Assembly (NCBI RefSeq): GCF_007859675.1
Contig: NZ_CP042305.1
Coordinates: forward strand, 992,001-1,056,000
From: Humibacter ginsenosidimutans
Lineage (GTDB): Bacteria; Actinomycetota; Actinomycetes; Actinomycetales; Microbacteriaceae
Direction: 5' to 3'
Length of the DNA stretch: 64,000 bases
The stretch's first letter is position 1. The number at the start of each line of letters is the position of its first letter. Made by a program: the position numbers and the translations under genes. The notes under the pieces are model-generated. The model had not been told where the DNA came from. It saw only the letters and a program-made list of their open reading frames with translations, and searched no databases. This document shows, piece by piece, positions 1 through 63,093 of this stretch.

Positions 1-2135
1 AGGGGGCCGCTGAGGTCGCCGGTGAGCGCGTCGACGATCTGGGCGGCTTCTATAGGGCGGCTGTTGAAGACACCGTCGGTGATGAGACTCCATGCGGCCA
101 CGCGGACCTGTTTTGTCGTGTTCGCGGCGAGCTCGTGCATGATGCCGGCTTGCAGCGCATAGATGTCGGCGCCTGCGGCGTTCCCACCGTAGAACCGTGT
201 CGTGTTCAGCCAGTAGGGACGCCGCAGGAGTTCTCGCAACACGAGCGTGCGGTCGAAGTGCTGGTCACCTTCCCCCGCGTAGGTGTAGAGGTAGCGGGCG
301 GCGAAGTATTCGCGGAGCGAGAGGACTTCGAACTCGAACGTCCCTTCTTCCTTGCTGGTCAATGCCCACAGCCGGTCCGAGGCAGCCAGGAACAGGTCGT
401 CAACAACGCTCTCGGGTTTGCCGTAGGTGCGTTGGAAGTGTTTCATCGCGGCCTCGACTTCGGCGTAGGTCATGCGGCCGCTGTGGCCCTGCTCCTCGGC
501 ACGGGATTGGATATACCAGCCAAGAAAGGGCACGACTTCCATCAGTTCGGAGCGGTATTTGCGGACGGAGTCGGGATGCTTGTTCGACTCGCGCGCCAGG
601 AGCATGCTCATGTAGGCGTCGTAGAGCTCGGTGCGTTGGCTGGGCGTCGCATCGCCGTGCTGGCGGAGCAGGAAGAGCAGGATGGTTAGCTGCATCGGGT
701 TGCCGGCGAGTTCGCCAATGTAGGGCTCACGGGTCTTCTCGTTGAAGTTCCGGCGCAGGGTGCGGCTGTCGTTGATCGGGACGTTGTGGACCAGACACCA
801 CTTGCGGAGGTACTCGTCGCGCAGGGCTGGCTCAAGTGGGCCGAGCGAGATGATCTCGAACACGTCGCGGTCGGGTTCGGGCAATCCCGCAGAGTTAGGC
901 CGTGAGGTAACGATCACGCGCGGTTCCACCGCGTATGACGTGCCGCGGGAACAGAACAGGTCGATCTCACGGACAATGCGACCTCGGGCCGAGGTGCCGC
1001 CGACCTCGTCGAGGCCGTCAAGCACGACGAGGCTCGGGACCCGGTCGAAGAGGTCTTGGACGTCGGACGGTGTGATCGGGCTGCCGCCCAGGTGCGTCAT
1101 CAGGTCGGCGAGGAAGTGCTCGATCGAGGCCTGAGTGCCCGCGCGTTTCGTGCCCTTCTTGACCTTGGCGGATTCCGAGGTGTCAAACACGTCGAACCCC
1201 TGCAGCCAGGCTGCGTAGTCGGCCAGGTCGGCGCGCACAGGGAACCGTGGATCCTTGATGTAAGGCAGTGACGTCGTGGGAGTGCCTTCCGGCATGAACG
1301 CCGCCCGGTGAGTCTGGCAGACGTACTGGCTCAGGGTGGACTTCCCCTGCCCGGGAGCACCGCGCACCAGCGTAAACGGGTACGGCGACCTCTCGGTGAC
1401 ATATGTCGCGGCGCCGCCAAGCCGGGTGGCAGCGCCGGCGAGCGTCTGGGCGCGACGGGGCACCTGGATCCGATCCGCGGGGACGTCGACAAACAGGTCC
1501 GAAAGGTGCTCCCTGTCCAGCTCAACCTGGCTGAACTTGATGCGTTCGTCGTCCTTCCACTGGGCGGCGGCGACCCGGCGCACCAGGTCCCCCAGTCCTG
1601 AGTCTCGTTGCGCGACGGCCTGTTCGGAAAGCAGGTAGCGGATCAGGTCCCAGCCGGCGAGCATGTCGGCGTACTGCCACTTGATCTCGGAGTCGGCGTT
1701 GTCGACCATTCCATCGATGGCCTCACGCCACAGCCCGGTGATCTCGAGTCCATACTCTTCCGAGTGTGCTGCGAGCTTCTTGTTGAGCCGGTCAAACGTG
1801 CCAGTACCGAGTTTCCCGGTGCTGGGCACATTGGTGACAATCACATACTTGCGGACGCCTTCTGCAGCGAGCCGGGTGATGTTGTCTTTCTCTTTGGTGA
1901 CGGTCGCGTCGAGCCAGCTGACGGGGTCACGTTCGCGGCCGCGCACCGACCACTTCACCTGATAGACGAGCCGATTCGCTGGGGCAGTTTGTATCCCGTC
2001 CCGGCCGCCGTCAGGCTGGCGCAGTGGGAGTGGAACGTAGTCCGTGAACCGTTCCGTGAGCAGGGCATTGACGAGCAGTTGGAAGTCATGGTCGCCCAGC
2101 CGCTCGTAGAGATACTTGTAGCGACTCTCAGGCAA
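1..2135 (-). CDS. Mrr-type nuclease fused to NACHT ATPase (C-terminus outside window)
   Basis: Partial gene entering from the left edge; about 711 residues are visible. Residues 10-110 look like an Mrr-type PD-(D/E)xK nuclease: a GGRDG motif (residues 43-47) followed by YQVKW (58-62), giving Asp46 and a Gln-x-Lys catalytic pair. A NACHT/STAND NTPase follows, with Walker A GAPGQGKS (259-266) and Walker B VLDGLDEV (371-378). The remainder is probably the sensor or repeat region, cut by the window. The likely start is TTG at 2135 with an AGGAG five bases upstream; an in-frame TGA lies just before. Nuclease-NACHT proteins belong to the bacterial NLR-like (Avs/bNACHT) antiphage class, in which ligand sensing triggers an effector nuclease. 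The HEPN-like gene lies 157 bases upstream on the same strand. Function is inferred from architecture. Confidence 0.8.
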   Translation of the reverse strand, partial: MPESRYKYLYERLGDHDFQLLVNALLTERFTDYVPLPLRQPDGGRDGIQTAPANRLVYQVKWSVRGRERDPVSWLDATVTKEKDNITRLAAEGVRKYVIVTNVPSTGKLGTGTFDRLNKKLAAHSEEYGLEITGLWREAIDGMVDNADSEIKWQYADMLAGWDLIRYLLSEQAVAQRDSGLGDLVRRVAAAQWKDDERIKFSQVELDREHLSDLFVDVPADRIQVPRRAQTLAGAATRLGGAATYVTERSPYPFTLVRGAPGQGKSTLSQYVCQTHRAAFMPEGTPTTSLPYIKDPRFPVRADLADYAAWLQGFDVFDTSESAKVKKGTKRAGTQASIEHFLADLMTHLGGSPITPSDVQDLFDRVPSLVVLDGLDEVGGTSARGRIVREIDLFCSRGTSYAVEPRVIVTSRPNSAGLPEPDRDVFEIISLGPLEPALRDEYLRKWCLVHNVPINDSRTLRRNFNEKTREPYIGELAGNPMQLTILLFLLRQHGDATPSQRTELYDAYMSMLLARESNKHPDSVRKYRSELMEVVPFLGWYIQSRAEEQGHSGRMTYAEVEAAMKHFQRTYGKPESVVDDLFLAASDRLWALTSKEEGTFEFEVLSLREYFAARYLYTYAGEGDQHFDRTLVLRELLRRPYWLNTTRFYGGNAAGADIYALQAGIMHELAANTTKQVRVAAWSLITDGVFNSRPIEAAQIVDALTGDLSGP

Positions 2136-2292
2136 CAGCGCTCCTCTTCAGATCCTCTCTATGTTCCCACCACCGGTCATCTGGTTCGTGCACGTGTGCG
2201 CCGGCAGTTCTTTGAGAACTGGGGAAGGCCAGCTCGTACCTCGATCTCGGACGTTCAGTGACTGTGTTGTGCGCTGAACTATTTACTAGCGG

Positions 2293-3204
2293 CTAGTCTC
2301 GGTCTCGGTCGAGTTGGATGCCGCTCATCGCTTCCGCGAGCACGTAGGTACGCACTCCGTGCATGGCAGCGGGGAATATTTCGTTCCAGGCTCGCATCGT
2401 CGCCTCTAGCGCTTCGAGGGCTGCTCCGACCTCAGCGATCAGAGCGCGGTGATCGTCCGGCTGATGCGTCTCTCCGTCATACACGGTGAGGGACTGGTAG
2501 TCGCCGTGGTCCGTCCAGGGGTTTGATGTTGCGACACCACCATGGACGGATTGTGGTCGCCATCGATGGAAGTCGACGTTCCGGCGATCAACGAGCTTCG
2601 CCCATCGCTCGTCATCGATGAGCGTGCGGAGAAGATGCGCGAGTTGCCTCGCTTCCATATGATGCTCCGCGGCTTCTTCCAGCGAGCTGACCGAGCTCGT
2701 GTTGAACGCAAGCCAGTGGTCAAATCGTTCATCAAACGGCGGAAAGCCCTTGCTTCGAGGCTGACTCCTCGCCAGCATCGCGCGACTGCGCGTCTCAAGC
2801 GCGAGCAATCGTGCCGCGACGTTCACAAGGCCATGTCCGGTGCTGATCGCGTAATAGCCCGAGATTTCCGCTAACGCTCGTGCCGGAAGGCCAATGCGGT
2901 CATCGGACGAGGGTTGCGCCACCCACGCACGCGCGTCCCGGTAAGCGGTCCCAGCGATACCCAACTGTTCGCCCGCGGACGCGATGCGCCCGAACAGCGT
3001 GAACACGCGACCAGGCTCGGCCCGGTTCGCCACCGCACTCATCTCCTGGAAGGACGCCTCTCCCCCGAGTTCTTGCCAAGTCAAGGCAGTCTCGGTCACC
3101 CTATTGTCGAGAGCACTCGCCTCTTCAACCCGCCCGGAGAACAGCGTTGGGACGGTTATGCCGATCACGCGCACCGGATCCGGCGCAGGTTCTGATTCCG
3201 TCAT
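2293..3204 (-). CDS. HEPN-like protein, possible RNase partner of the NACHT gene
   Basis: This 303-residue protein has no family I can name. It is mostly predicted helical and carries RNVDFH (residues 208-213), which fits the Rx4-6H motif of HEPN ribonucleases, including the polar residue after Arg. HEPN proteins are common toxin or effector subunits in defence systems. The gene lies upstream of the Mrr-NACHT gene in the same orientation with a 157-base gap, so the two may form an operon. A TATAGC box ends eight bases before the ATG, compatible with a leaderless transcript, and no Shine-Dalgarno is seen. The motif is short and could be chance, so the HEPN call is tentative; the gene call is firmer. 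Confidence 0.6.
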   Translation of the reverse strand: MTESEPAPDPVRVIGITVPTLFSGRVEEASALDNRVTETALTWQELGGEASFQEMSAVANRAEPGRVFTLFGRIASAGEQLGIAGTAYRDARAWVAQPSSDDRIGLPARALAEISGYYAISTGHGLVNVAARLLALETRSRAMLARSQPRSKGFPPFDERFDHWLAFNTSSVSSLEEAAEHHMEARQLAHLLRTLIDDERWAKLVDRRNVDFHRWRPQSVHGGVATSNPWTDHGDYQSLTVYDGETHQPDDHRALIAEVGAALEALEATMRAWNEIFPAAMHGVRTYVLAEAMSGIQLDRDRD

Positions 3205-4087: not shown

Positions 4088-7000
4088 TCAGAGGCGGCGT
4101 CGATATTCGACCTGCACTACTTGCCTGTGTGGGGTCCTCGACTCCGACGCTGCCCCGATCTGTCGAGCGCGGAGCAACGTAACGGACGCGGTGCGGTATT
4201 CGATGGCTTGCTGGGCGCTGGTGATGTCCTTGGGGTTGCCAAGCGGTGCAGGGCCCGTAATGTCATATCGCCACCGATACAGCGCGATCGTCGCCGCGTG
4301 GGCGGACCAGACCCGGCGGGCGCGCTGGTTCGTCGGAGGCGGGCCCACGCGTGTGGTCCAGTTCTCCCTTGCGTGGATCGCGATCTGCAGGAGCTTGCGC
4401 GCGGCGGTCTCGATCAGGGTCTGACGTTCGGTCAGCGCGGCGCGCATGTCGTCCGGGATGGGTCCGGCGGGTATCGGGATGAGTCCGGCGACCCTGCGTG
4501 TCGTGGCGGCGCGGCGCTGGCCGAGCTTTGCGGTAGCCCGGTCGATCCGCGTAGCGAGCAGGGCGGCGGAGTCGGCCAGGTCCTCACCCGACACAGTGGA
4601 CGGGGCGAGGGCTGTGAGGATCGTGGCGGGGTCGTGTCCGGCGGCGACGTGGCGTGCGAGGGCGGCTTCGAGACGGTCATAGTACGGACTGGTGAACAGG
4701 TTGTCGGCTACGGTGTCGCGGAACGGGGCGGCATCCAGCAGCGCCGCCCACCGAACAGCCTGTGCTTCGCGAGCGAGAACGTCGTATTCCGCGAGCAACA
4801 TCGAAAGGGACGCGTGCCGGTCTACTTCCAGCTTCAACGTCTCGGTGGCAGACAGGTCGGCGTCGCTGCGGGCGAGGACCCGTGCCAGCTGCTGGGCGAC
4901 GGTCTTGGGTTCGGGCTGGTCCAGGTGGGCTTCGACCTCGTGCGGGTCGGGCTGGATGACGTAGGCGTGGTTGGCTTCGCGTCCGCGGGTGAGGGCGACG
5001 TAGAGCAGTTCCCGGGCGGCCTTCTCCGGATCGACGAGAGCATGGGTGGTGTCGACGGTCGCGCCCTGCGCGCGGTGGACGGTGGCCGCGTAGCCGAGCT
5101 CCAGGTCCTCCCGTACGTAGGCGGCGGGCAGGACGAGGGCCTTGCCGTAGGGGTGGTTGCCTTTCCCGAATCGGCGCACCGCCAGTGAGCCGTCCTCGTG
5201 GCGGTGGGTGACGTGCCAGTGGTCGCCGTTCTTTACCCACGATCGTCCCGTGCTCAGTCGGCGATCGTTGCGGCGGGTGACGACCAGATCCCCGACGCCC
5301 GCGGTGGTGCCGTCGTGCAATGCTGCGCCTTCGGCCTCGACGATGCCGGCGCCGATCAGGTCGACGCGGGCGCGCTGGTTCAGTTCGGCGACGGCGTCCC
5401 CGTTGTCGGCGATCATCAGCGTGGACAGCCCCGCGTCCCGGTCTGTCTGCCACGCCGCGTAGAGCGTGTCCAGCATCGTCTCGGCGTTCCCGTCGTGCAG
5501 GCGCCCGTGTTCTTGGTAGACGTCGAGGACGTTGATGTCGCCGTGACGCAGGGCGAGGGAGGCGGTCTTCTCCCAGTCGTGGACGAACCGGCGCACATCG
5601 GTCAGTTCGGGCGCCGAGTGGCGGTGACGCACGAGCATCCCGAACGCCCCGCCGGTCTCCACCGCGGACAGTTGCGCCCAGTCGCCGACGAGAACGACCT
5701 TGGCCCCGACCTGAGCGGCGTGCGCGGTGATCCGATCCAGGGCCAACGTTCCGGCCAGCGACGCCTCGTCCACTAGAACGAGTTGCCCGGCCAGCAGGTC
5801 CCACCGGTGCTTGCCGTGCTCGTAGAGGAACTTCGCCGTGTTCTCCGCCTTCACCCCCAAGCTCTCGCCGAGGACTTCCGCGGCAGCCGCGGACGGCGCG
5901 AGCCCGATCACCGAGTTCCGCCCGTGCCCGGCGGTCCAGGCCCGGTGCAGGGCGCGTAGCGCGGTCGTCTTCCCGGCACCTGCTGGGCCGACGAGCACGT
6001 CGAGGATGAGACCGGAGCGGGCGATTTGGGTGATCGCCGCCGCTTGGTCTGGGGCGAGCCGGACTCCCTTGATTTTGCGGGAGGCGTGTCGTGCGATCAA
6101 CCGTGCCGACAACGCGGGTCCGTCGGCTGTCTCGGAGTGGTGTAGGAGACGTTGCTCGGCGTCGACGATGTCCTGGGCGGAGTAGGTCAGCTGGTCACTG
6201 GACTGGAACCGGTTGGACCCGTCTTTCAGCACGTAGTCGTTGGGCACTGGGCGGTCGTAGTCCGGGGTGAGCCGCAAAGACGCATCCTCGGTGCGGGTCA
6301 CGATCCGATCGAGCACAGCGGTCCGGTCGTCTGTGGTGGCGAAGCGGACTCCCATCAGTTGTCGCATCGCTTCGGCATGCAGGTTCCACCGAGTCCAGGT
6401 CGCGCGACGGTTCGCGACTTCCAGCAACGCGACGGCCGCGATGTCGTGCACCTGCTCCAGGCCCAAGTCGTCGGCACGCAACCGCGCCTCACCCGACCCG
6501 CGTGCCAGAAGATGCCGCGCCCAGGTCGTCGCATCCTCACCCAACACCACCGTTGCACGCCTGCGCCATTCAGTAGTCAACTCGGCCAGCGAATGCAGCT
6601 GCTTGCCCGGCCTGGTCTCCAACGTTGCCTGCTGCCGCAATCTCGTGATTGTCCTGGCCGAGGGCTGCCGCCCATGCTCGGCGACGTACTCGGCGATCAG
6701 CCGGTTCTTCACCTGCTCGATCCCGTCCAGGCTGCCGTCGCTGGTGCCCGTGGTGCGGCGGGAGAAGGCGGCCGCAAGCGCGGTCGGTACGCCGTCGATC
6801 TCCCAACCGGTGTTGCGGTCCTTGCCGCGATCCACCGGAACCCAGGCCACTCCGAGCAGCCGGGCGGTGTGGTCGGTGAGGAAGGCGTTATATGACTCCG
6901 ACAACGCCACCGCTGCCTTGTGCAGGCGCCGCGAATCCAGACTTCGCCACCGCCCGTCGACACCCTGCACCTTGTTCGAGACCACGACGTGCGTGTGCAG

Positions 7001-7660
7001 TTGCGGGTCCGCGGCCCGCGAGTCGTAATGATCGAACGCCGTCGCGATCACCCCAGTGACGGGCATCATCGCGATCCCACCGTGCCCCGCCCTGGTGGCG
7101 GCGACTCGTTCCTCCAGCAAGGCGATGGTGTCGCGCATCGCGGCATGATGCGCCTGTGCGATCAGCGCTTGCGTGCCGGCGTCCGTCACGCCCCACACCG
7201 TGCTGAGCGACTTCGGCGGGGAGAACGTCAGATCGAAGCCCGCAACCGCCGTGCGCGCCTTCTTCGCCAACTCCTCCTCACGAATGCGAACAATGGCTTC
7301 GTCGCGTTGCGCACCAGTCAGCGACGTATCCAGGCGTGCAACCCGCGCTGCAATGCGTTCACGCGGGGGTTGCAGTCGCGGGTACGGCAACCCGAGCTTG
7401 TCGCCAGTCACCGGGTGGACGCCCTCGCCGAGTAGCCGAGCGAGTTGCTCCTCGGTCACCGTGTCATCCACCGCGAGCGCGAAACCTCTCCCGGCCGCCA
7501 GGCTGGCAAGGCCAGCACCGAGCCACACTCCGGGCGGGCAGCCGGACTCGGTGTAGTACCGGGTCAACGGGGTCCCCATGTCGCGATCCCCGTCGCCGGC
7601 GGCCACCGACTGGAGCAGGTACCCATACCCGCGACCGGACGACATCACCCGAATAGTCAT
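4088..7660 (-). CDS. traA: MobF-family conjugative relaxase-helicase
   Basis: A 1190-residue TrwC/TraI-type protein that would nick oriT, stay covalently attached to the transferred strand and unwind it. The start ATG 7660 (MTIRVMSSGRGYGYLL) has GGGAGGGG upstream; the frame stays open 27 codons further but that part is unlike the family. Catalytic tyrosines are Y35/Y36 (TRYYTESG). The metal-binding three-histidine set is H211 with HTH at 222-224. The C-terminal RecD-like helicase has Walker A GPAGAGKT (558-565), Walker B LVDEAS (629-634) and a late VHRAQG motif. It is transcribed away from the main transfer operon and separated from it by the cargo, though it must act with the VirD4-like protein at 49.9 kb. 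Confidence 0.93.
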   Translation of the reverse strand: MTIRVMSSGRGYGYLLQSVAAGDGDRDMGTPLTRYYTESGCPPGVWLGAGLASLAAGRGFALAVDDTVTEEQLARLLGEGVHPVTGDKLGLPYPRLQPPRERIAARVARLDTSLTGAQRDEAIVRIREEELAKKARTAVAGFDLTFSPPKSLSTVWGVTDAGTQALIAQAHHAAMRDTIALLEERVAATRAGHGGIAMMPVTGVIATAFDHYDSRAADPQLHTHVVVSNKVQGVDGRWRSLDSRRLHKAAVALSESYNAFLTDHTARLLGVAWVPVDRGKDRNTGWEIDGVPTALAAAFSRRTTGTSDGSLDGIEQVKNRLIAEYVAEHGRQPSARTITRLRQQATLETRPGKQLHSLAELTTEWRRRATVVLGEDATTWARHLLARGSGEARLRADDLGLEQVHDIAAVALLEVANRRATWTRWNLHAEAMRQLMGVRFATTDDRTAVLDRIVTRTEDASLRLTPDYDRPVPNDYVLKDGSNRFQSSDQLTYSAQDIVDAEQRLLHHSETADGPALSARLIARHASRKIKGVRLAPDQAAAITQIARSGLILDVLVGPAGAGKTTALRALHRAWTAGHGRNSVIGLAPSAAAAEVLGESLGVKAENTAKFLYEHGKHRWDLLAGQLVLVDEASLAGTLALDRITAHAAQVGAKVVLVGDWAQLSAVETGGAFGMLVRHRHSAPELTDVRRFVHDWEKTASLALRHGDINVLDVYQEHGRLHDGNAETMLDTLYAAWQTDRDAGLSTLMIADNGDAVAELNQRARVDLIGAGIVEAEGAALHDGTTAGVGDLVVTRRNDRRLSTGRSWVKNGDHWHVTHRHEDGSLAVRRFGKGNHPYGKALVLPAAYVREDLELGYAATVHRAQGATVDTTHALVDPEKAARELLYVALTRGREANHAYVIQPDPHEVEAHLDQPEPKTVAQQLARVLARSDADLSATETLKLEVDRHASLSMLLAEYDVLAREAQAVRWAALLDAAPFRDTVADNLFTSPYYDRLEAALARHVAAGHDPATILTALAPSTVSGEDLADSAALLATRIDRATAKLGQRRAATTRRVAGLIPIPAGPIPDDMRAALTERQTLIETAARKLLQIAIHARENWTTRVGPPPTNQRARRVWSAHAATIALYRWRYDITGPAPLGNPKDITSAQQAIEYRTASVTLLRARQIGAASESRTPHRQVVQVEYRRRL

Positions 7661-8108
7661 CACCACCGCGAACCCCTCCCGAAACGAACTCGGGGAGGGC
7701 CGCCTCAGTGACCAGGTGCGCTCCAGCGCACCACGACGCACCGACGGTGCCAGACGTGTGGGGGCTCAGAGAGGGGTAGAGCCAAGGGACTCCACGTCTG
7801 CTTCAGATGTCGTGTGTACGTCGAGAAGCCTCAGCGGGACTCCGGCTGAGGACCAGAGATCCGCCGGATTCTCCAAGCACTACGCCGGCTTGCGAAGGCG
7901 GAGTGTGAGGACGACCGAGTCCAACTCGTCATCACGGCATACGAGAACGGGCTGATCTAAGCAAGAATCAAGAGTGGTCTGGCCGGCTCGGCCGCCGCGA
8001 ATGCATCGACCCGTGGATCACGAGGGCCCGAGCTTATCGCCCGCCGAAGCCCCGCAACCCACCATCTTCTTTTTCCCCCAGCGTGCCTTGATTGGAGTGC
8101 TGCTAAGG
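7661..8108. other. Non-coding stretch upstream of the relaxase
   Basis: No convincing gene. It includes the relaxase ribosome binding site (7670-7680) and a small hairpin at 7829-7851 (CCTCAGC, nine-base loop, GCTGAGG). Relaxase upstream regions often hold oriT, and this hairpin is the only obvious inverted repeat here, but no nic site can be identified by eye. Confidence 0.4.
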
Positions 8109-51690: not shown

Positions 51691-51733
51691 CCAGATCAGC
51701 TCGCGGCAGGTGCGTGCGTGGGGGTGGTGCTGA

Positions 51734-52381
51734 GTGGTCCGTCGGCGCCGGTCGGTGCCGGCGGACCAGCTCGAGCTGGACCTGTGGGGCCTGGACGAGA
51801 CCGCCGCCAGCATCACCATCACCACGGCAGCAGACGAGCCCCCACCGCAACCGGCCGCGGTTGCGGACGAGCGGCCCGATCTGGCCCCGACGAACCGACC
51901 CCAGGAGGAGGAACACGATGAATCGGTACGGGACCAGGCTCCGTCAGGCGTGGGTGACCAGGGCACCGGAACGCCCGGAGGCATTGACCGATCCGGAGGA
52001 GTTCTTCACGGCACTGGGGTTAGAGGTGCAGGGCCAGATCAGCGACCTGGCAGCCCGGTTGGAGGCGGAGCCGGCGGTGTGGGGTCTGGAGACGACGCCC
52101 TTTTCGGAGCAGACTTACTTGCAGCAGGTCTCACGCCGGGCAACGGCGATGAGAATGGCGGAGGAGGTCGTGATGAACCAGCAGCTGGCCTGGATTCCCG
52201 ACCCGTCCCCTGTCCCTGCCGGAGGCGCGGGAGGAGTGGGAGCAGACCCGTCCCTCGGACGAGAACCTCATCCTGTGGGCGGAGCGGATGCAGGATTCCC
52301 CGTACCCGGTGCACTCCACGGTGGAGCTGGAAGAGAAGGCTCAGGACTGGACGATCCCGATGTGGTTCCTGGAGGGCTTGA
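51734..52381 (+). CDS. Small protein with a clamp-binding-like QLELDLW motif
   Basis: The reading frame from GTG 51734 begins VRRRRSVPADQLELDLWGLDE, then a Pro/Ala-rich acidic stretch. QLELDLW fits the hexapeptide-type motif by which bacterial proteins bind the replication sliding clamp. The frame stays open to 52381 through the next gene; the real protein may be only its first 60 or so residues. Position 44 bases after the coupling protein supports translation, yet the high GC keeps frames open by chance. Confidence 0.35.
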   Translation: MVRRRRSVPADQLELDLWGLDETAASITITTAADEPPPQPAAVADERPDLAPTNRPQEEEHDESVRDQAPSGVGDQGTGTPGGIDRSGGVLHGTGVRGAGPDQRPGSPVGGGAGGVGSGDDALFGADLLAAGLTPGNGDENGGGGRDEPAAGLDSRPVPCPCRRRGRSGSRPVPRTRTSSCGRSGCRIPRTRCTPRWSWKRRLRTGRSRCGSWRA

Positions 52382-52473
52382 TGACCGCTCCGATTCCGCG
52401 CCAGTACGCCCAGGAGCACCAGGAAGTGCTGGCAGAGGCCGCGAACGTCCGCTTCCTCAGGCAGGTCCGCTAA
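51918..52473 (+). pseudogene. TnpV-like small protein with a one-base frameshift
   Basis: ATG 51918 with CAGGAGGAGG upstream reads MNRYGTRLRQAWVTRAPERPEALTDPEEFFTALG through VVMNQQLAWIPDPS. The rest of the family sequence (LSLPEAREEWEQTRPSDENLILWAE ... FLEGLMTAP ... ANVRFLRQVR) continues in another frame to the stop at 52473. Removing one C from the CCCC run near 52208 restores a protein of about 184 residues. Similar proteins are annotated TnpV-like and precede the giant helicase in actinobacterial elements. Confidence 0.7.
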
Positions 52474-52508
52474 CCCCTAGCTCGGGCGGGGAGGTTCCGC
52501 CGCGGTTC

Positions 52509-55500
52509 GTGCCGTCCTCGCAAGAGGATCTCGCTCCATCGGGGGCGAAGGCACGGTTTCGGGCGAACGTTGCCGCGATTCGTATCGTCCGCGACGTGGC
52601 TGACCACGACCGGCACGCCACCGGTGAGGAGCAACGGGTGCTGGCCCGGTGGTCGTCCTGGGGTGCGATCCCGGACGTGTTCGACGACCACAAACCGGAC
52701 TGGGACACCGAACGGACCGAACTCCGAGGGCTACTGAGCGAGGCGGAGTGGGACGCGGCGGCCAGGACGACGATCAACGCGCACTACACCGACCCGCTGA
52801 TCGCCGCCCAGATGTGGCGGGCGATGCGTGCACTCGGGTACACCGCCGGTCAGGTGCTGGAGCCGGGCTCTGGCGCAGGCACGTTCATCGGCCTGGCGCC
52901 GGAGACTGCACAGATGACCGGGGTGGAGTTGGACCCGGTGACCGCGGCGATCAGCCACGCCCTGTATCCGCAGGCGGACATCCGTGCCGAGTCGTTCGCC
53001 GACACCCGCATGCCCGAGGGGTTCTTCGATGCGGCGATCGGGAACGTGCCGTTCGGGAAGGTGATCCTGCATGATCCGGTGCACAATCCGACCCGCCAGT
53101 CGATGCACAACCATTTCCTCCTCAAGAGTCTGCGGCTGACCCGGCCGGGCGGGCTGGTGGTCGCGTTGACCTCGCACTACACGATGGACACGCAGAACCC
53201 CGGCGCCCGGCGGGAGATGAACGATCTCGCCGACCTGGTCGGCGCGGTGCGGCTGCCGAACCGAGCACACTCGCGTGCGGCCGGCACCGACGTGATGACC
53301 GACCTGCTGATCTTCCGCCGCCGCGAACATGACCGGCCACCAGCCGACAACGAGTGGGAGACCGTCGTACCGATCACGGTCAACGACCGACATGTCAAGA
53401 TCAACGCCTACTTCGACGCGCACCCCGACCGGATGCTCGGCCAGATCGGCGCCAGCCGGGATATGTACGGCAGCGATCAGCTCACCGTCACCGGCGACCT
53501 CCAAAGTCTCGGGGACGACCTTGCCGACGCGATCAATCAGATCACCTTCGCCGCCCGCCGAACCGGACTGGTGATGACCGACCGCACCGCAGAGGAACAG
53601 ACACGGCGGGCGGCGTTCGTTCCGGCACCATCGGAACGATGGGACGGCAGCATCCTCACCACAGAGAGCGGCGGTTTCGGCACCGTGGACGGCGGCGCAG
53701 TCGAGCCACTCGACGTACCGAAGTCCGCTGCCGTCGAACTGCGCGCCCTGCTGGGGCTCCGTGATACAGCGACCCGGCTGCTGGAACTGGAAGCCGCGAC
53801 CGTGGATGACACCGACGAGATCGTCCAGGCGCGGGACGGGTTGCGCCGTGACTACCAGACGTACCTGGGCCGGTACGGGCCGTTGAACCGGTACACGCTG
53901 CGCCGCACCGGTCGCACCAACGAGGCCGGTCAGGAGACTCAGGCCCGGGTCGTGCCGACCCCGATCCGTCTGCTGCGGTCGGACCCGTTCGGGGCTCTGG
54001 TGTTGGCGTTGGAGGTCTTCGACGATGCCGAGCAGACCGCGTCCCCGGCGGCGATCATGTCCCGCCGGGTCGTCGCACCTCGCGTGGAGATCCAGGGCGT
54101 GGACACCCCGGCGGATGCGATCGCGGTGAGCCTGGACCGCACCGGCCGCATTGACCTGACGCTGATCGCGGACATCCTCGGCATGACCGAGCCCGACGCC
54201 CGCCAAGCCCTTACCGGCCTCGTCTACACCGATCCCGGCACTGGCGAGCTGATTCACGCGCCCGCCTACCTCTCCGGTGACGTGCGGGCCAAGCTTGACG
54301 CCGCGAAGACCAAGGCGGCCGACCACCGGCAGTTCCAGGCCAATGTCGACGCCCTCACCCAGGTGTTGCCGGAGCCGTTGGGGGTCGAGGAGATCGCCGC
54401 CCGGCTCGGCGCGGTGTGGATCAGCGCCGGCGTGCACGAGCAGTTCCTGAACGACCTGCTGCGCACCCACGAGGTGCGGGTGGAGAACCCGCTGCCAGGC
54501 ATGTGGGAGGTCCGCGGTGGCCGGCAGGGCCTGCTGGCCACCAGCGAATGGGGCACCCCACGGCGGCCCGCCCCGGACATCGCGCAGGCCGTCATGGAAC
54601 AACGCACCCTCCTGGTCTACGACCAGGTCGAGGATGTCGACGGGCGCACCCGCCAGGTCCTCAACCCGGTCGATACAACGAGCGCCCAGGAGAAAGCCGA
54701 CCAGCTGCAGGAACGCTTCGTCGAATGGGTCTGGGAGGACCCCGAACGTGCCCGCATCCTCGTCGAGGAGTACAACCGACGGTTCAACTCGATCGTGCTG
54801 CGCGACTACACGGGTGCCGGTGAATACCTCACCTTGCCCGGTCTGGCGTCGAACTTCACCCCGCGCCCGCACCAACGCTCCGCTGTTGCCCGGATGATCG
54901 CCGAACCCGCCGCCGGCCTCTTCCACGAGGTCGGTGCGGGGAAAACCTCGGAAATGATCATGGGCGTGATGGAGATGCGCCGCATGGGTCTGATCAGCAA
55001 ACCCGTGCTCGTCGTCCCGAATCACATGTTGGAGCAATTCGGCCGCGAATGGCTCCAGATCTACCCGCGCGCCCGGATTCTCGCTGCCTCGTCCAAGGAC
55101 CTCACCGCGGACAAGCGCCGTCTGTTCGTCGCCCGCGCCGCCGCCTCCGAGTGGGATGGAGTGCTGATGACGCAGGGCGCGTTCGCGCGCATCCCGCTGC
55201 GCCCGGGCACCCAGACTGCGTACATCCAAGCCCAGGTCGAGGAACTGCGCCGCATCCTGCACGAGGCGGAGGGTGAGGATCGGATGAGCGTCAAGCGCAT
55301 CGAGCGCAAGCTCTTGGTGGCCGAGAACAAGTTGAAGACGCAGACCGACACCACCCGGGATTCGGGGGTGTGTTTCGAGGACGCCGGGTTCGACTACGTG
55401 GTCGTGGACGAGATGCACATGTACAAGAACCTCGCCACGGAGTCCAACATCCGCGACGCCGCCATCGACGGCTCCGAGCGGGCCACCGACCTGCACATGA

Positions 55501-57536
55501 AACTGGAATACCTGCGCTCCCAAGGTCGGGAACGAGTCGTGACTGCAGCGACCGCGACCCCGATCTCCAACAGCGTCACAGAGGCCTTCGTGATGCAGAA
55601 GTACCTGCGCCCCGACCTGCTGGAGGCGGCGGGGATCGGGTCGTTCGATGCGTGGGCGGCCACCTTTGGTTCCCAGGTGACCGAGATGGAGATGGCTCCG
55701 ACCGGGAGCAACACGTTCCGGATGAAGACCCGGTTCGCGAAGTTCTCCAACGTGCCCGAGATGCTGAAACTCTGGTCCATCTTCGCCGACGTGAAGACCG
55801 CTGACGACCTTCACCTCCCGATCCCGGAGCTGACCGAGCGCGACGACGGGAAACGGGCGCCCGCCACCGTCGCCATCCAGCCCACCGTCGAACTCGAGCA
55901 GTTCATCGAGACCCTCGGGCAGCGGGCCGACAAGGTGGCGTCCAACCAGGTGTCCCCGGACGAGGACAACATGCTCGTGATCTCCACCGACGGACGCAAA
56001 GCCGCCCTCGACATCCGCATGATCATTCCCCGAAGTCCCTCGGGACCGACGAAGGTGGATATCGCCGCCGACACCATCTATCGGGTGTGGCAGCAGACCC
56101 GCGACAACGAGTACCTGGACACCATCACCGGGCAACCGTCCCCGGTGCGAGGTGCGCTGCAACTCGTGTTCTCCGACATCGGCACCCCGCACCCCGAGCG
56201 GTGGAACGCCTACGACGAACTCCGCACCCAGCTCGTCACCCGCGGCATGCCGGCCGAAGCGATCCGGTACATGCACGAAGCCAAAACCGACTCCGATAAG
56301 GCCAGGTTGTTCGCCGCCGCCCGCGCCGGACGCATCGCCGTGCTCATTGGGTCGACGGAGAAGATGGGCGTGGGCACGAACGTGCAAGCGCGTGCTGTCG
56401 CGCTGTATCACCTGGACTGCCCGTGGCGGCCCAGCGACATCGCACAGCGTGAGGGGCGCATCCTGCGGCAGCTGAACCAAAACGCGGAGGTCGCGATCGT
56501 CCGATTCGTCACTGAACGCTCTTTCGACGCCTACATGTGGCAAGGCGTGGAACGCAAAGCGACGTTCATCGCGCAGTTGATGCGCGGCCGGCTCGATACC
56601 CGGGAGATCGAGGAGATCGACTCAACCGCGCTGTCCGCCGCCGAGGCCAAAGCCATCTCGTCGGGCAATCCGCTGCTGCTGGAGCACTCCACGATCCAGA
56701 ACGAGGTCACCCGGCTCCGACGCTTGGAGCGGGCCTGGCACCGCAACCAGTCCATGCTCATCCACACCCGCGACCGCGCGAACGACGACGTCCGCCGCGC
56801 TGAAACAGACATCGCCGGGCTGGAAGACGCCCTGCCGCACATCGTCGATACCTCCGGGGATCGGTTCCGCATCACCCTCGGCAGCAAACCGTACGACTCA
56901 CGGGCCGACGCCGCGCACGCCCTCGCCGGTTGGGCACACACCTCCGACCTGAAATGGGCGCCTCGCTACGCCACCCACGACTACGGCGTCATCGGCACGA
57001 TCAGCGGATTCGACATCACCGTCAGCACGAGCCCGGCCTTCGGCGGCGACCTCATGGTCCACGTCGGCCTGGCCGGGGTGCCGCGCAGCGGCTTCGTCCT
57101 GGACCGAGAGACGTTCCTGGGCAGCGGGGTCGGTCTGATCCAACGCATCGAGAACCGGCTCACCGGCATCCCTGCTCTCCTCGACCACGCCCGCACCGAC
57201 CTGATCACCGCCCAGGAAGCCGCCGCCGACGCCAGCGAGCGAGTCGGGCAGCCCTTCCGGCACGCCCAAGCGCTCACTGACGCCGAAGAAGACCTCGCCG
57301 ACGTCGAGACCCGGCTGGCGGCCATGCAACACGACACCGAGACCCCGACCGGCGGATCGCGCCACGCCTCGACAGCCCCACGACCCGAGAGAGACGCGGA
57401 CGGGGTGAATGTGGAGGCGGTGCGCGCCCACCGGCCCGCTCTCGGCGTCCGTTCCGATTCCGCACGCACACCGACCCCAGCCATCGCTGAGGCCACCCGT
57501 CCGACCGTGCGAGATGCGCCCGCCCGCGGACTCTGA
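52509..57536 (+). CDS. Giant N6-adenine methylase-SNF2 helicase fusion (DarB-like)
   Basis: About 1675 residues from GTG 52509, the first plausible start after the TnpV-like stop. The methylase part has SAM motif VLEPGSGAGTFIG (117-129) and a catalytic-loop-like IGNVPFGK near 176 (N-x-P-F). The helicase part has Walker A HEVGAGKT near 805, VVVDEMHMYKN near 966, TATPISNS, and SDIAQREGRILRQ near 1314. A coiled C-terminal region follows. Such fusions on phages and elements (DarB of P1 type) protect incoming DNA from restriction. No stop or frameshift interrupts 5 kb. Confidence 0.88.
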   Translation: MPSSQEDLAPSGAKARFRANVAAIRIVRDVADHDRHATGEEQRVLARWSSWGAIPDVFDDHKPDWDTERTELRGLLSEAEWDAAARTTINAHYTDPLIAAQMWRAMRALGYTAGQVLEPGSGAGTFIGLAPETAQMTGVELDPVTAAISHALYPQADIRAESFADTRMPEGFFDAAIGNVPFGKVILHDPVHNPTRQSMHNHFLLKSLRLTRPGGLVVALTSHYTMDTQNPGARREMNDLADLVGAVRLPNRAHSRAAGTDVMTDLLIFRRREHDRPPADNEWETVVPITVNDRHVKINAYFDAHPDRMLGQIGASRDMYGSDQLTVTGDLQSLGDDLADAINQITFAARRTGLVMTDRTAEEQTRRAAFVPAPSERWDGSILTTESGGFGTVDGGAVEPLDVPKSAAVELRALLGLRDTATRLLELEAATVDDTDEIVQARDGLRRDYQTYLGRYGPLNRYTLRRTGRTNEAGQETQARVVPTPIRLLRSDPFGALVLALEVFDDAEQTASPAAIMSRRVVAPRVEIQGVDTPADAIAVSLDRTGRIDLTLIADILGMTEPDARQALTGLVYTDPGTGELIHAPAYLSGDVRAKLDAAKTKAADHRQFQANVDALTQVLPEPLGVEEIAARLGAVWISAGVHEQFLNDLLRTHEVRVENPLPGMWEVRGGRQGLLATSEWGTPRRPAPDIAQAVMEQRTLLVYDQVEDVDGRTRQVLNPVDTTSAQEKADQLQERFVEWVWEDPERARILVEEYNRRFNSIVLRDYTGAGEYLTLPGLASNFTPRPHQRSAVARMIAEPAAGLFHEVGAGKTSEMIMGVMEMRRMGLISKPVLVVPNHMLEQFGREWLQIYPRARILAASSKDLTADKRRLFVARAAASEWDGVLMTQGAFARIPLRPGTQTAYIQAQVEELRRILHEAEGEDRMSVKRIERKLLVAENKLKTQTDTTRDSGVCFEDAGFDYVVVDEMHMYKNLATESNIRDAAIDGSERATDLHMKLEYLRSQGRERVVTAATATPISNSVTEAFVMQKYLRPDLLEAAGIGSFDAWAATFGSQVTEMEMAPTGSNTFRMKTRFAKFSNVPEMLKLWSIFADVKTADDLHLPIPELTERDDGKRAPATVAIQPTVELEQFIETLGQRADKVASNQVSPDEDNMLVISTDGRKAALDIRMIIPRSPSGPTKVDIAADTIYRVWQQTRDNEYLDTITGQPSPVRGALQLVFSDIGTPHPERWNAYDELRTQLVTRGMPAEAIRYMHEAKTDSDKARLFAAARAGRIAVLIGSTEKMGVGTNVQARAVALYHLDCPWRPSDIAQREGRILRQLNQNAEVAIVRFVTERSFDAYMWQGVERKATFIAQLMRGRLDTREIEEIDSTALSAAEAKAISSGNPLLLEHSTIQNEVTRLRRLERAWHRNQSMLIHTRDRANDDVRRAETDIAGLEDALPHIVDTSGDRFRITLGSKPYDSRADAAHALAGWAHTSDLKWAPRYATHDYGVIGTISGFDITVSTSPAFGGDLMVHVGLAGVPRSGFVLDRETFLGSGVGLIQRIENRLTGIPALLDHARTDLITAQEAAADASERVGQPFRHAQALTDAEEDLADVETRLAAMQHDTETPTGGSRHASTAPRPERDADGVNVEAVRAHRPALGVRSDSARTPTPAIAEATRPTVRDAPARGL

Positions 57537-61439: not shown

Positions 61440-62648
61440 TCAATCGAGCAACTCCACGAAGGCCGCGTCCATGATCTCAGCAGTGATCGGGTCGACTTGT
61501 TCTGCGCTGACGACATAGCTTGCGCGGGTGATTTGTTCGTTGGCGTGCCCGAGCAGCCGGGAGGCGAGGGTGATTCCGGCAGCCGCCTCAACGATCGTCG
61601 CAGTCGAGCGGCGGAAGATGTGCGTGGAAAACTCGTCCACGTCGATGCCCGCAACGCGCAACGCGGCTTCGTTGTCGTCAACGAAGCCGCGAAGTAGTCG
61701 CTCGAAGTTACTCACCGTCATCGGCTTACCTGCCTTCGTCGCGAATAAGGGCGCCTCCGGTTCCCTATCTGTGACGGTGAGCTGGCTACGCACGGCGGCG
61801 GCGGCAAAGCTTGGCAGGGCGATACGACGCCTCTGCCTGGTGCGCTTCGGTGCGTTCTTTCGGCGGTTGCCCTCCTTTCTGCTCTGCTGCATGGTCGCGT
61901 TCACCAGAGCCGTGGGAGGGTCAGAGGTGACGTCGACGTCGCACCGTCGGAGAGCGAGCACCTCGCCGACACGGGCGCTGGTGCCGACCATGATCCACAT
62001 CCCGTTCTCTAGCGCTTGCACGTTCGGGCGAGGCCCGTATCCGGTGTCGGTGCGCCATGTCCGGATGAGCCGCTGTACGAGGATCAGCTGCGTAGGGCTG
62101 AGCACGGAGGTCTTCTTCTCCGGTAGGGGGAGACGTCGAGCGTCGCGCACCGGGTTGAAGGTGAGGATCTCGTACTCGATCCCGGTCTGGCACACCTGCG
62201 AGAACACGGACCGTGCCTTGCGAGCGGCGGCCAGCGAGTAGTTTTCACGGATGTCAGCGAGGATGCGGTTGCAGCGACGGACGCTGAAGTCGCGGAGCAT
62301 GAGATCCCCGCAGACCGGCACGATCACATTCCGAATGGACTGCTCGTAGGCCTCCATCGTGGTCGGCTCGACGGTCGCGGAGCGTTCCTTGTCGTAGAGG
62401 AACACCCGCCCGACCTCAGAGATGGTGGCCTCTTTACTCAGGGATGGTCCGCCCGTGTCGTTGCGGATCGCGTCCGCCTTCGCGCGAAGCTGCTGAATGG
62501 CGGCATCCTGGGTGTCGCCGCTGGCCTTGAGCCGCTGCAACTCTCCGAGCTCGTCGCACATCCGGGAGCGGGCCTGGAAACGGCCACTGGGTAACTGGAG
62601 GACCTTGATCGTGCCGAGTTCGCCGGCGCGCAGCTTCGACCTAGCCAT
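61440..62648 (-). CDS. int: Tyrosine site-specific integrase
   Basis: A 402-residue tyrosine recombinase: N-terminal arm and core-binding region (AISEVGRVFLYDKE-like, SIRNVIVPVCGDLMLRDFSV) and catalytic domain with R in TSARVGEVLALRR, H-x-x-R in STHIFRRS, the second H in LLGHANEQITRASYV and the nucleophile Y. ATG 62648 overlaps the excisionase end by eight bases. Sits about 370 bases from the tRNA-Gln 3' end, its expected target. Drives integration and, with the excisionase, excision. Confidence 0.94.
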   Translation of the reverse strand: MARSKLRAGELGTIKVLQLPSGRFQARSRMCDELGELQRLKASGDTQDAAIQQLRAKADAIRNDTGGPSLSKEATISEVGRVFLYDKERSATVEPTTMEAYEQSIRNVIVPVCGDLMLRDFSVRRCNRILADIRENYSLAAARKARSVFSQVCQTGIEYEILTFNPVRDARRLPLPEKKTSVLSPTQLILVQRLIRTWRTDTGYGPRPNVQALENGMWIMVGTSARVGEVLALRRCDVDVTSDPPTALVNATMQQSRKEGNRRKNAPKRTRQRRRIALPSFAAAAVRSQLTVTDREPEAPLFATKAGKPMTVSNFERLLRGFVDDNEAALRVAGIDVDEFSTHIFRRSTATIVEAAAGITLASRLLGHANEQITRASYVVSAEQVDPITAEIMDAAFVELLD

Positions 62649-62829
62649 CGGAGTCCAGCTCCTCGAACCAGGCCAGCACCTCGCGGCGCAAGTACCGGAC
62701 ATGCCGCCCTACCCGTCGCCACGGCGGTCCACTGCGCGTGCGCCGCCACTCTTCGATGGTCCGGGGTGGGATGTGAAGGAGATCGGCGACCTGCTCGGGC
62801 GTCATGATCTCGGTGCTGAGATCGTTCAT
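62641..62829 (-). CDS. xis: Excisionase-like MerR-type DNA-binding protein
   Basis: A 62-residue protein: a winged helix-turn-helix (MTPEQVADLLHIPPRTIEEWRRTRSGPPWRRVGRHVRYLRREVLAWFEEL) as in element excisionases. ATG 62829 gives the compact form; the open frame to 62982 would add unrelated residues. Overlaps the integrase start by eight bases, so the two are co-translated. Confidence 0.85.
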   Translation of the reverse strand: MNDLSTEIMTPEQVADLLHIPPRTIEEWRRTRSGPPWRRVGRHVRYLRREVLAWFEELDSDG

Positions 62830-63001: not shown

Positions 63002-63021
63002 CGGAATTCCGGCCGTCACTG

Positions 63022-63093
63022 CTGGGGTACCTGGACTCGAACCAAGAACAACTGAACCAGAATCAGCCGTGTTGCCAATTACACCATACCCCA
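63022..63093 (-). tRNA. tRNA-Gln (anticodon CTG)
   Basis: A 72-base cloverleaf on the minus strand: acceptor TGGGGTA pairs with TACCCCA, the anticodon loop contains CTG within TTCTGGT, and the T-loop contains TTCGAGTC. The gene ends before CCA, as in many actinobacteria. Its 3' part is the probable attachment site of the element. Confidence 0.95.

Follow-up and report, generated by a model that had tools for sequence, protein, structure and literature searches.

Antiviral STAND (Avs) proteins are laid out as a nuclease, a STAND NTPase and a helical sensor. Here we describe two adjacent genes of Humibacter ginsenosidimutans, one for a protein of 1112 residues that combines a nuclease-type motif with a NACHT ATPase module and the other for a protein of 303 residues with an Rx4H motif, which lie at the left end of a 64,000-nucleotide stretch of the host genome (positions 992001-1056000; the genome is 4.18 Mb in one contig), hereafter the window. 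Loci that we examined carry L-numbers (L003 being the host locus), proteins P-numbers and the genomes compared G-numbers. The original prediction, drawn from the sequence alone, took the two genes for a candidate antiphage system in which one sensor would control both a DNA nuclease and a possible RNase, the latter a dedicated HEPN-like partner. The evidence argues against such a two-effector system. The explanation we prefer, with slightly more confidence than doubt, is that the genes are neighboring but separately evolving cargo, a bNACHT-type DNA-degrading defense gene beside a stand-alone HEPN-like gene, and not one system.

The described proteins most like the 1112-residue protein are bNACHT25 and bNACHT32 of clade 6, single proteins in which an N-terminal PD-(D/E)XK DNase is followed by a central NACHT module and a helical C-terminus (excerpted text of PMC12169576, which also names AVAST). 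Their essential aspartate, D48, lies at a similar place to D46 of the window protein. The likeness is drawn from their description, and databases call some relatives of the window protein "large ATP-binding protein". Unlike Avs proteins, the 1112-residue protein has an NTPase of the NACHT clade; the resemblance to them is one of layout.

The 303-residue protein is comparable to the HEPN superfamily, which includes Abi proteins, Csx1, the KEN domain of RNase L and MNT-associated toxins. In the excerpted portion of PMC3710099, HEPN domains are described as mostly helical, with a conserved Rx4-6H motif closing a helix that leads into a loop and a hairpin, and with a polar residue (N, D or H) usual after the arginine. 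The window protein is likewise mostly helical in its predicted structure, with its Rx4H motif in the corresponding place, and, as in the superfamily, some neighbors of its family are restriction and Abi-type genes. The family differs from the described HEPN families in that no sequence or fold match to them was found, in its extended RxxDFHRWRPQ block and in the glycine that usually follows the arginine. DS-11 (CBS-HEPN) is a single HEPN protein able to defend alone (excerpt of PMC13092281); unlike DS-11, the 303-residue protein has no CBS domain that Pfam could find. The leads that the locus leaves are an undescribed HEPN-like family and a widespread nuclease-NACHT family.

Distribution of the two gene families

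Both genes and the interval between them are on the minus strand. The NACHT gene fills 1..2135 of the window, where positions 3-2135 encode the first 711 residues, and continues past the left edge to genome position 990797; the full open reading frame in the host genome (L003 8797-12135) encodes 1112 residues. As this frame is complete, the idea that the gene is a mere fragment was rejected. The intact 303-residue frame (2293..3204) lies directly upstream on the same strand, as had been predicted, at a distance of 157 bp (2136..2292), and a promoter scan of this intergenic region found no sigma-70-like site.

Among 398 genomes of the same taxonomic family, the 303-residue family occurs in five (E ≤ 0.001) and the NACHT family in six (E ≤ 1e-30), while across 396 genomes of the phylum each occurs in two (E ≤ 1e-100 for the NACHT family); in both sets the only genome with both families is that of the window. 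It is also the only one of 396 genomes of the order in which the 303-residue family was found. Profile scans of flanking DNA (1.5 to 8 kb, with 1.5 kb per side in L025-L027, a 6.9-kb contig in L038 and 1.9 kb on one side in L009) identified the NACHT family in 0/16 other loci of the 303-residue family (0/15 if the near-identical L018 and L017 are counted once) and the 303-residue family in none of the 13 other NACHT loci. Because the families do not share any examined genome or locus outside the window's own, we rejected a dedicated NACHT and HEPN pair as a conserved system: the partner is absent from 16/16 and 13/13 other loci, and co-occurrence is seen in one of the 398 genomes, which leaves two effectors under one sensor unsupported as well. 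Homologs of the 303-residue protein without any NACHT neighbor had been named beforehand as an outcome contrary to the prediction; all 16 other loci hold such relatives with no relative of this NACHT protein, and one of them (L014) has an unrelated NACHT gene nearby.

The nuclease-NACHT protein

The nuclease-type motif, Walker A motif and VLDGLDEV sequence that had been noted are all present in the 1112-residue protein: GGRDG (residues 43-47) and QVK (59-61), encoded together at 1953..2009 on the minus strand, GAPGQGKST (259-267) and VLDGLDEV (371-378). Among 120 listed proteins, the window's included, G.DG...Q.K is found in 115 and both G.PG.GKS and DGLDE in 120, and in an alignment of 32 family members G44, D46, G47, Q59 and K61 are invariant in all, as are Walker A and DGLDE. 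The central NACHT module that defines membership of the bNACHT group is present; the Pfam NACHT model matches all 32 aligned members at E ≤ 0.1, although the window protein itself scores below the model's cutoff (20.7-22.3 bits vs 26.7). In a fold search the predicted structure resembled NLRC4, NOD2 and NLRP3, consistent with an NLR-like core. The conserved motifs and this model support the assignment, made in the original prediction, to the nuclease-NACHT proteins of the bacterial NLR-related class, and the layout of putative PD-(D/E)xK-like nuclease, NACHT ATPase and helical C-terminus is an ordinary one for that class.

No nuclease model in Pfam or NCBIfam matched the protein, and the sole library support for a nuclease is a weak PADLOC match of its N-terminus (residues 7-126) to the "Aga_REase" model (E 0.0036). 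The predicted N-terminal order of secondary structure is helix, three strands, helix and strand, in a region that the fold search barely tested. Of the predicted Mrr nuclease, the GGRDG...QVK motif stands, and "Mrr" is kept as a motif-level label. A PDB sequence search gave a best E of 0.069, which is not credible, Pfam reported no NCH1 domain, viral contigs held no relatives of the protein, and a search of the viral fold library returned no match at E ≤ 0.001.

The domains of the protein are supported by its sequence and predicted model; what they do may be suggested by analogy with bNACHT25 and bNACHT32. The helical C-terminus would sense an infection cue, the NACHT ATPase would then oligomerize, and the N-terminal PD-(D/E)xK-like domain would cut DNA and so stop the infected cell.

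The 303-residue family and its HEPN-like features

A first search collected 43 proteins of the 303-residue family and a profile search 106 (query included), none of which has a precomputed Pfam domain. The window protein itself had no match in Pfam, PADLOC or NCBIfam. Pfam matches to 36 members were all weak (best 0.009, to DUF7374, which was reported for four), and PADLOC returned two single weak matches among 50 members (best 0.02). Searches with the family query A1 gave a best E of 0.14 in the PDB, which is not credible, and no relatives in viral contigs, and phage records searched with the 303-residue protein yielded none. In the titles and abstract beginnings of open-license PMC papers we found no description of the family or of a HEPN partner for a nuclease-NACHT protein. 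We regard the family as new here: an undescribed HEPN-like family, unmodeled in the libraries searched, of actinobacterial mobile elements and defense-type neighborhoods.

The Rx4H motif of the window protein is RNVDFH (residues 208-213; window 2566..2583, minus strand), as had been predicted. A bare Rx4H was rejected as evidence in itself, since 65% of 5000 shuffles of the protein contain one. The motif rises above this chance level because R208 and H213 are conserved, in all 50 members of alignment A2 and in 17/17 loci (a count that takes in the window and the near-duplicate L018). There are 17 invariant columns in A2, including E79, Q80, E113, N128, R208, H213, R214, W215 and R216, and no other invariant arginine and histidine share the spacing of R208 and H213; if the four invariant arginines and one invariant histidine were placed at random, an arginine at H-5 would have P = 0.013. 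Across the loci R208, H213, R216 and E113 are kept in 17/17 and E79 in 16/17, with R214 and W215 variable in several, more distant loci. Of 113 proteins collected, 105 have the longer pattern R.{4}HRWR, and the remaining eight are 157-272 residues long.

The predicted structure of the 303-residue protein is nearly all-helical, with a mean predicted local distance difference test (pLDDT) score of 82.6. The Rx4H motif ends a helix (199-215), after which the chain forms a loop and a short beta-hairpin before entering a long helix (252-293), the region after the motif being of low confidence (pLDDT under 50 for residues 213-227). Both the conservation of Rx4-6H and its position where helix 3 ends or the loop toward helix 4 begins, as in HEPN domains, are present, and on motif and model together we judge the protein likely to be HEPN. 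Of the HEPN-like partner that was predicted, the invariant R208/H213 pair at the helix end has been borne out, and no solved HEPN fold was matched. A distinctly less favored but sizable possibility, which overlaps the other readings, is that the protein has some other all-helical fold, as an enzyme or a binding protein, and that RxxDFHRWRPQ serves there as a structural element or a different catalytic motif. The weakness of the Pfam matches would fit this, as would the conservation of WRPQ after the motif, which the excerpted part of PMC3710099 does not describe for HEPN, and the outcome of the fold searches: Foldseek gave no match at E ≤ 0.001, and the rows listed by the fold searches were generic helical bundles, such as rhodopsins and G-protein-coupled receptors. 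It is countered by the R208/H213 pair, the only invariant one at its spacing, which outlasts the residues between and after it in distant loci, and by the helix end, loop and hairpin in the order described for HEPN.

If it is HEPN, the 303-residue protein is probably a stand-alone RNase, with R208 and H213 as its catalytic pair, that contributes to defense on its own, and it is likely active as a dimer. The motif and its place on the helix come from the alignment and model; the RNase activity, the dimerization and a trigger are what we infer.

Also new is the occasional fusion of the family domain with what may be a nuclease domain. Three members of 563-564 residues (P0204, P0206 and P0212) carry it behind an extra N-terminal part, which in P0204 includes RTADLLLVN...VVGELKI, and the D...ELK motif of this part possibly resembles those of PD-(D/E)xK nucleases, a label assigned by eye. 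Pfam gave no match here, and the N-terminal part of P0204, used as a query against plasmids, found no relatives. Should these fusions combine a nuclease with an RNase, the family would lend itself to the study of double-effector immunity.

The integrated element and the gene neighborhoods

A conjugative-type element of 64.6 kb, integrated at a tRNA-Gln gene, carries the NACHT and 303-residue genes as cargo at its left end, as established by its repeats, integrase, relaxase and empty sites. Its minus strand encodes a TrwC/MobF relaxase with helicase (4088..7741; Pfam TrwC 3.2e-79) and, next to the tRNA, a tyrosine integrase (61440..62702; Pfam Phage_integrase 6.2e-12). The right attachment repeat, a 35-bp direct repeat forming the 3' part of tRNA-Gln (63021..63055, minus strand), has its left copy outside the window at genome positions 990443-990477, 319 bp beyond the NACHT stop codon. 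In two genomes of the same genus (G126 and G057) the left flank continues directly into the tRNA and the right flank, the overlap being exactly 35 bp, and a third (G179) presents a partial empty site, matching the repeat and right flank only. The adjacency of the two genes is best explained by the accretion of defense genes on such an element. The element also has an open reading frame of 1940 residues (51714-57536) with SNF2/helicase matches and, by eye, a methyltransferase-like region upstream of these; its product may be a polyvalent protein.

An all-against-all comparison of neighbors at 16 loci of the 303-residue family, counting the window but not L018, yielded 22 matches and no conserved partner. 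The neighbors that recur are a relaxase (window, L017 and L033), ParA (L032, L033 and weakly L011), a recombinase-like pair of frames recognized by eye (L011 and L013) and HsdR-like genes (L009 and L015); the remaining matches are antisense frames of those genes and weak pairs between L012 and L013 and between the window and L016. Pfam, applied to chosen neighbors, identified HsdM (L009), ResIII and Abi_C (L011), Mrr_cat (L013), NACHT (L014), HSDR_N (L015), SLFN_AlbA_2 (L016), ResIII and Pkinase (L017) and CAP12-TIR with AAA_16 (L039), so that restriction or other defense-type domains lie near the gene in eight of 12 non-redundant non-plasmid loci (L009, L011, L013-L017 and L039). Scans of chosen neighbors in L010, L012 and L019 found none, and L038 was left out of the scans. 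L017 (1-16796, Compostimonas suwonensis) and L018 (2-16828, Microbacterium rhizomatis) are 99.9-100% identical over about 16.8 kb of DNA, owing to recent transfer or cross-contamination.

Four plasmid records match the 303-residue family, and the annotation of the three inspected (L031-L033) includes ParA on two (L032 and L033), a relaxase on one (L033) and no named restriction gene. These plasmid genes, and the presence of a relaxase gene next to or not far from the family member in the window, L017 and L033, together with a weak relaxase-like match in L011, raise the alternative that the protein, whether HEPN-like or otherwise helical, serves the mobile element in maintenance, rival exclusion or anti-defense during transfer, and not in phage defense. 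We think this rather unlikely, as the relaxase was recognized in just two of the 12 non-plasmid loci (L017 and, weakly, L011), against the eight of 12 with restriction or other defense-type neighbors.

Several points weigh against our preferred reading of two separate cargo genes, a DNA-degrading bNACHT gene and a stand-alone HEPN-like gene. The 157-bp gap and shared strand would permit co-transcription, and in L014 (Microbacterium sp. SA39) a NACHT protein (Pfam 1.4e-07) is encoded two genes upstream of the family member on the same strand. The nuclease label of the window's NACHT protein is given by the motif and the predicted strand order. No solved HEPN chain was among the 50 rows each listed by Foldseek and VIA-align for the 303-residue model, which is not proof of absence, and the residue after the motif's arginine, an asparagine in the window protein, is glycine in 68 of 105 members and N, D or H in 34. 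Finally, the neighbor scans covered chosen genes with no random-locus control, and we do not claim enrichment.

The arrangement of the genes also bears on a two-gene system newly assembled in this lineage, with the NACHT protein as sensor and DNase and the 303-residue protein as an RNA-cutting second effector under its control. Besides the spacing and strand in the window, it could draw on the same-strand run in L014 (NACHT gene, a gene of 255 residues and family member, separated by about 160 and 22 bp), on a divergent Mrr_cat gene about 130 bp from the family member in L013 and on the three proteins whose extension reads like PD-(D/E)xK. We nevertheless hold such a system to be improbable. 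Outside the window's own, none of the genomes or loci examined has both families; among relatives with a named locus, the closest (L010, 72% identity) and the next (L009, 60%) have no such NACHT gene within the available DNA; similarity between the L014 protein and the window's NACHT protein is detectable in the P-loop region only; and clustering in defense islands would explain the other cases. A broader version, in which the family is a HEPN RNase module repeatedly coupled to DNA nucleases in interchangeable DNase and RNase two-effector defenses, would take in the window's nuclease-NACHT gene, the unrelated NACHT gene of L014, the Mrr nuclease of L013 and the three fusions; we give it little credence.

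The nuclease-NACHT family is widespread and sometimes found on conjugative elements. Plasmid-borne relatives include one on pTC1, at 300 bp from a TraA-like gene, and one in Rhodococcus fascians, where a mobF gene lies 1.7 kb away, and for four other plasmid copies the stretch available, with incomplete gene tables, had no conjugation gene. A TPR-like protein (L010 4111-7767) encoded beside a member of the 303-residue family is related (27% over 477 columns, E 7e-32) to another (L040 13497-14924) whose gene is some 4 kb away from a NACHT relative. The plasmid NACHT relative of Rhodococcus fascians is followed, on the same strand and after about 150 bp, by a gene for an Abi family protein (L030 9520-10473), and that of Mycobacterium gordonae is followed on the opposite strand by AbiE-type genes (L029 9660-11386).

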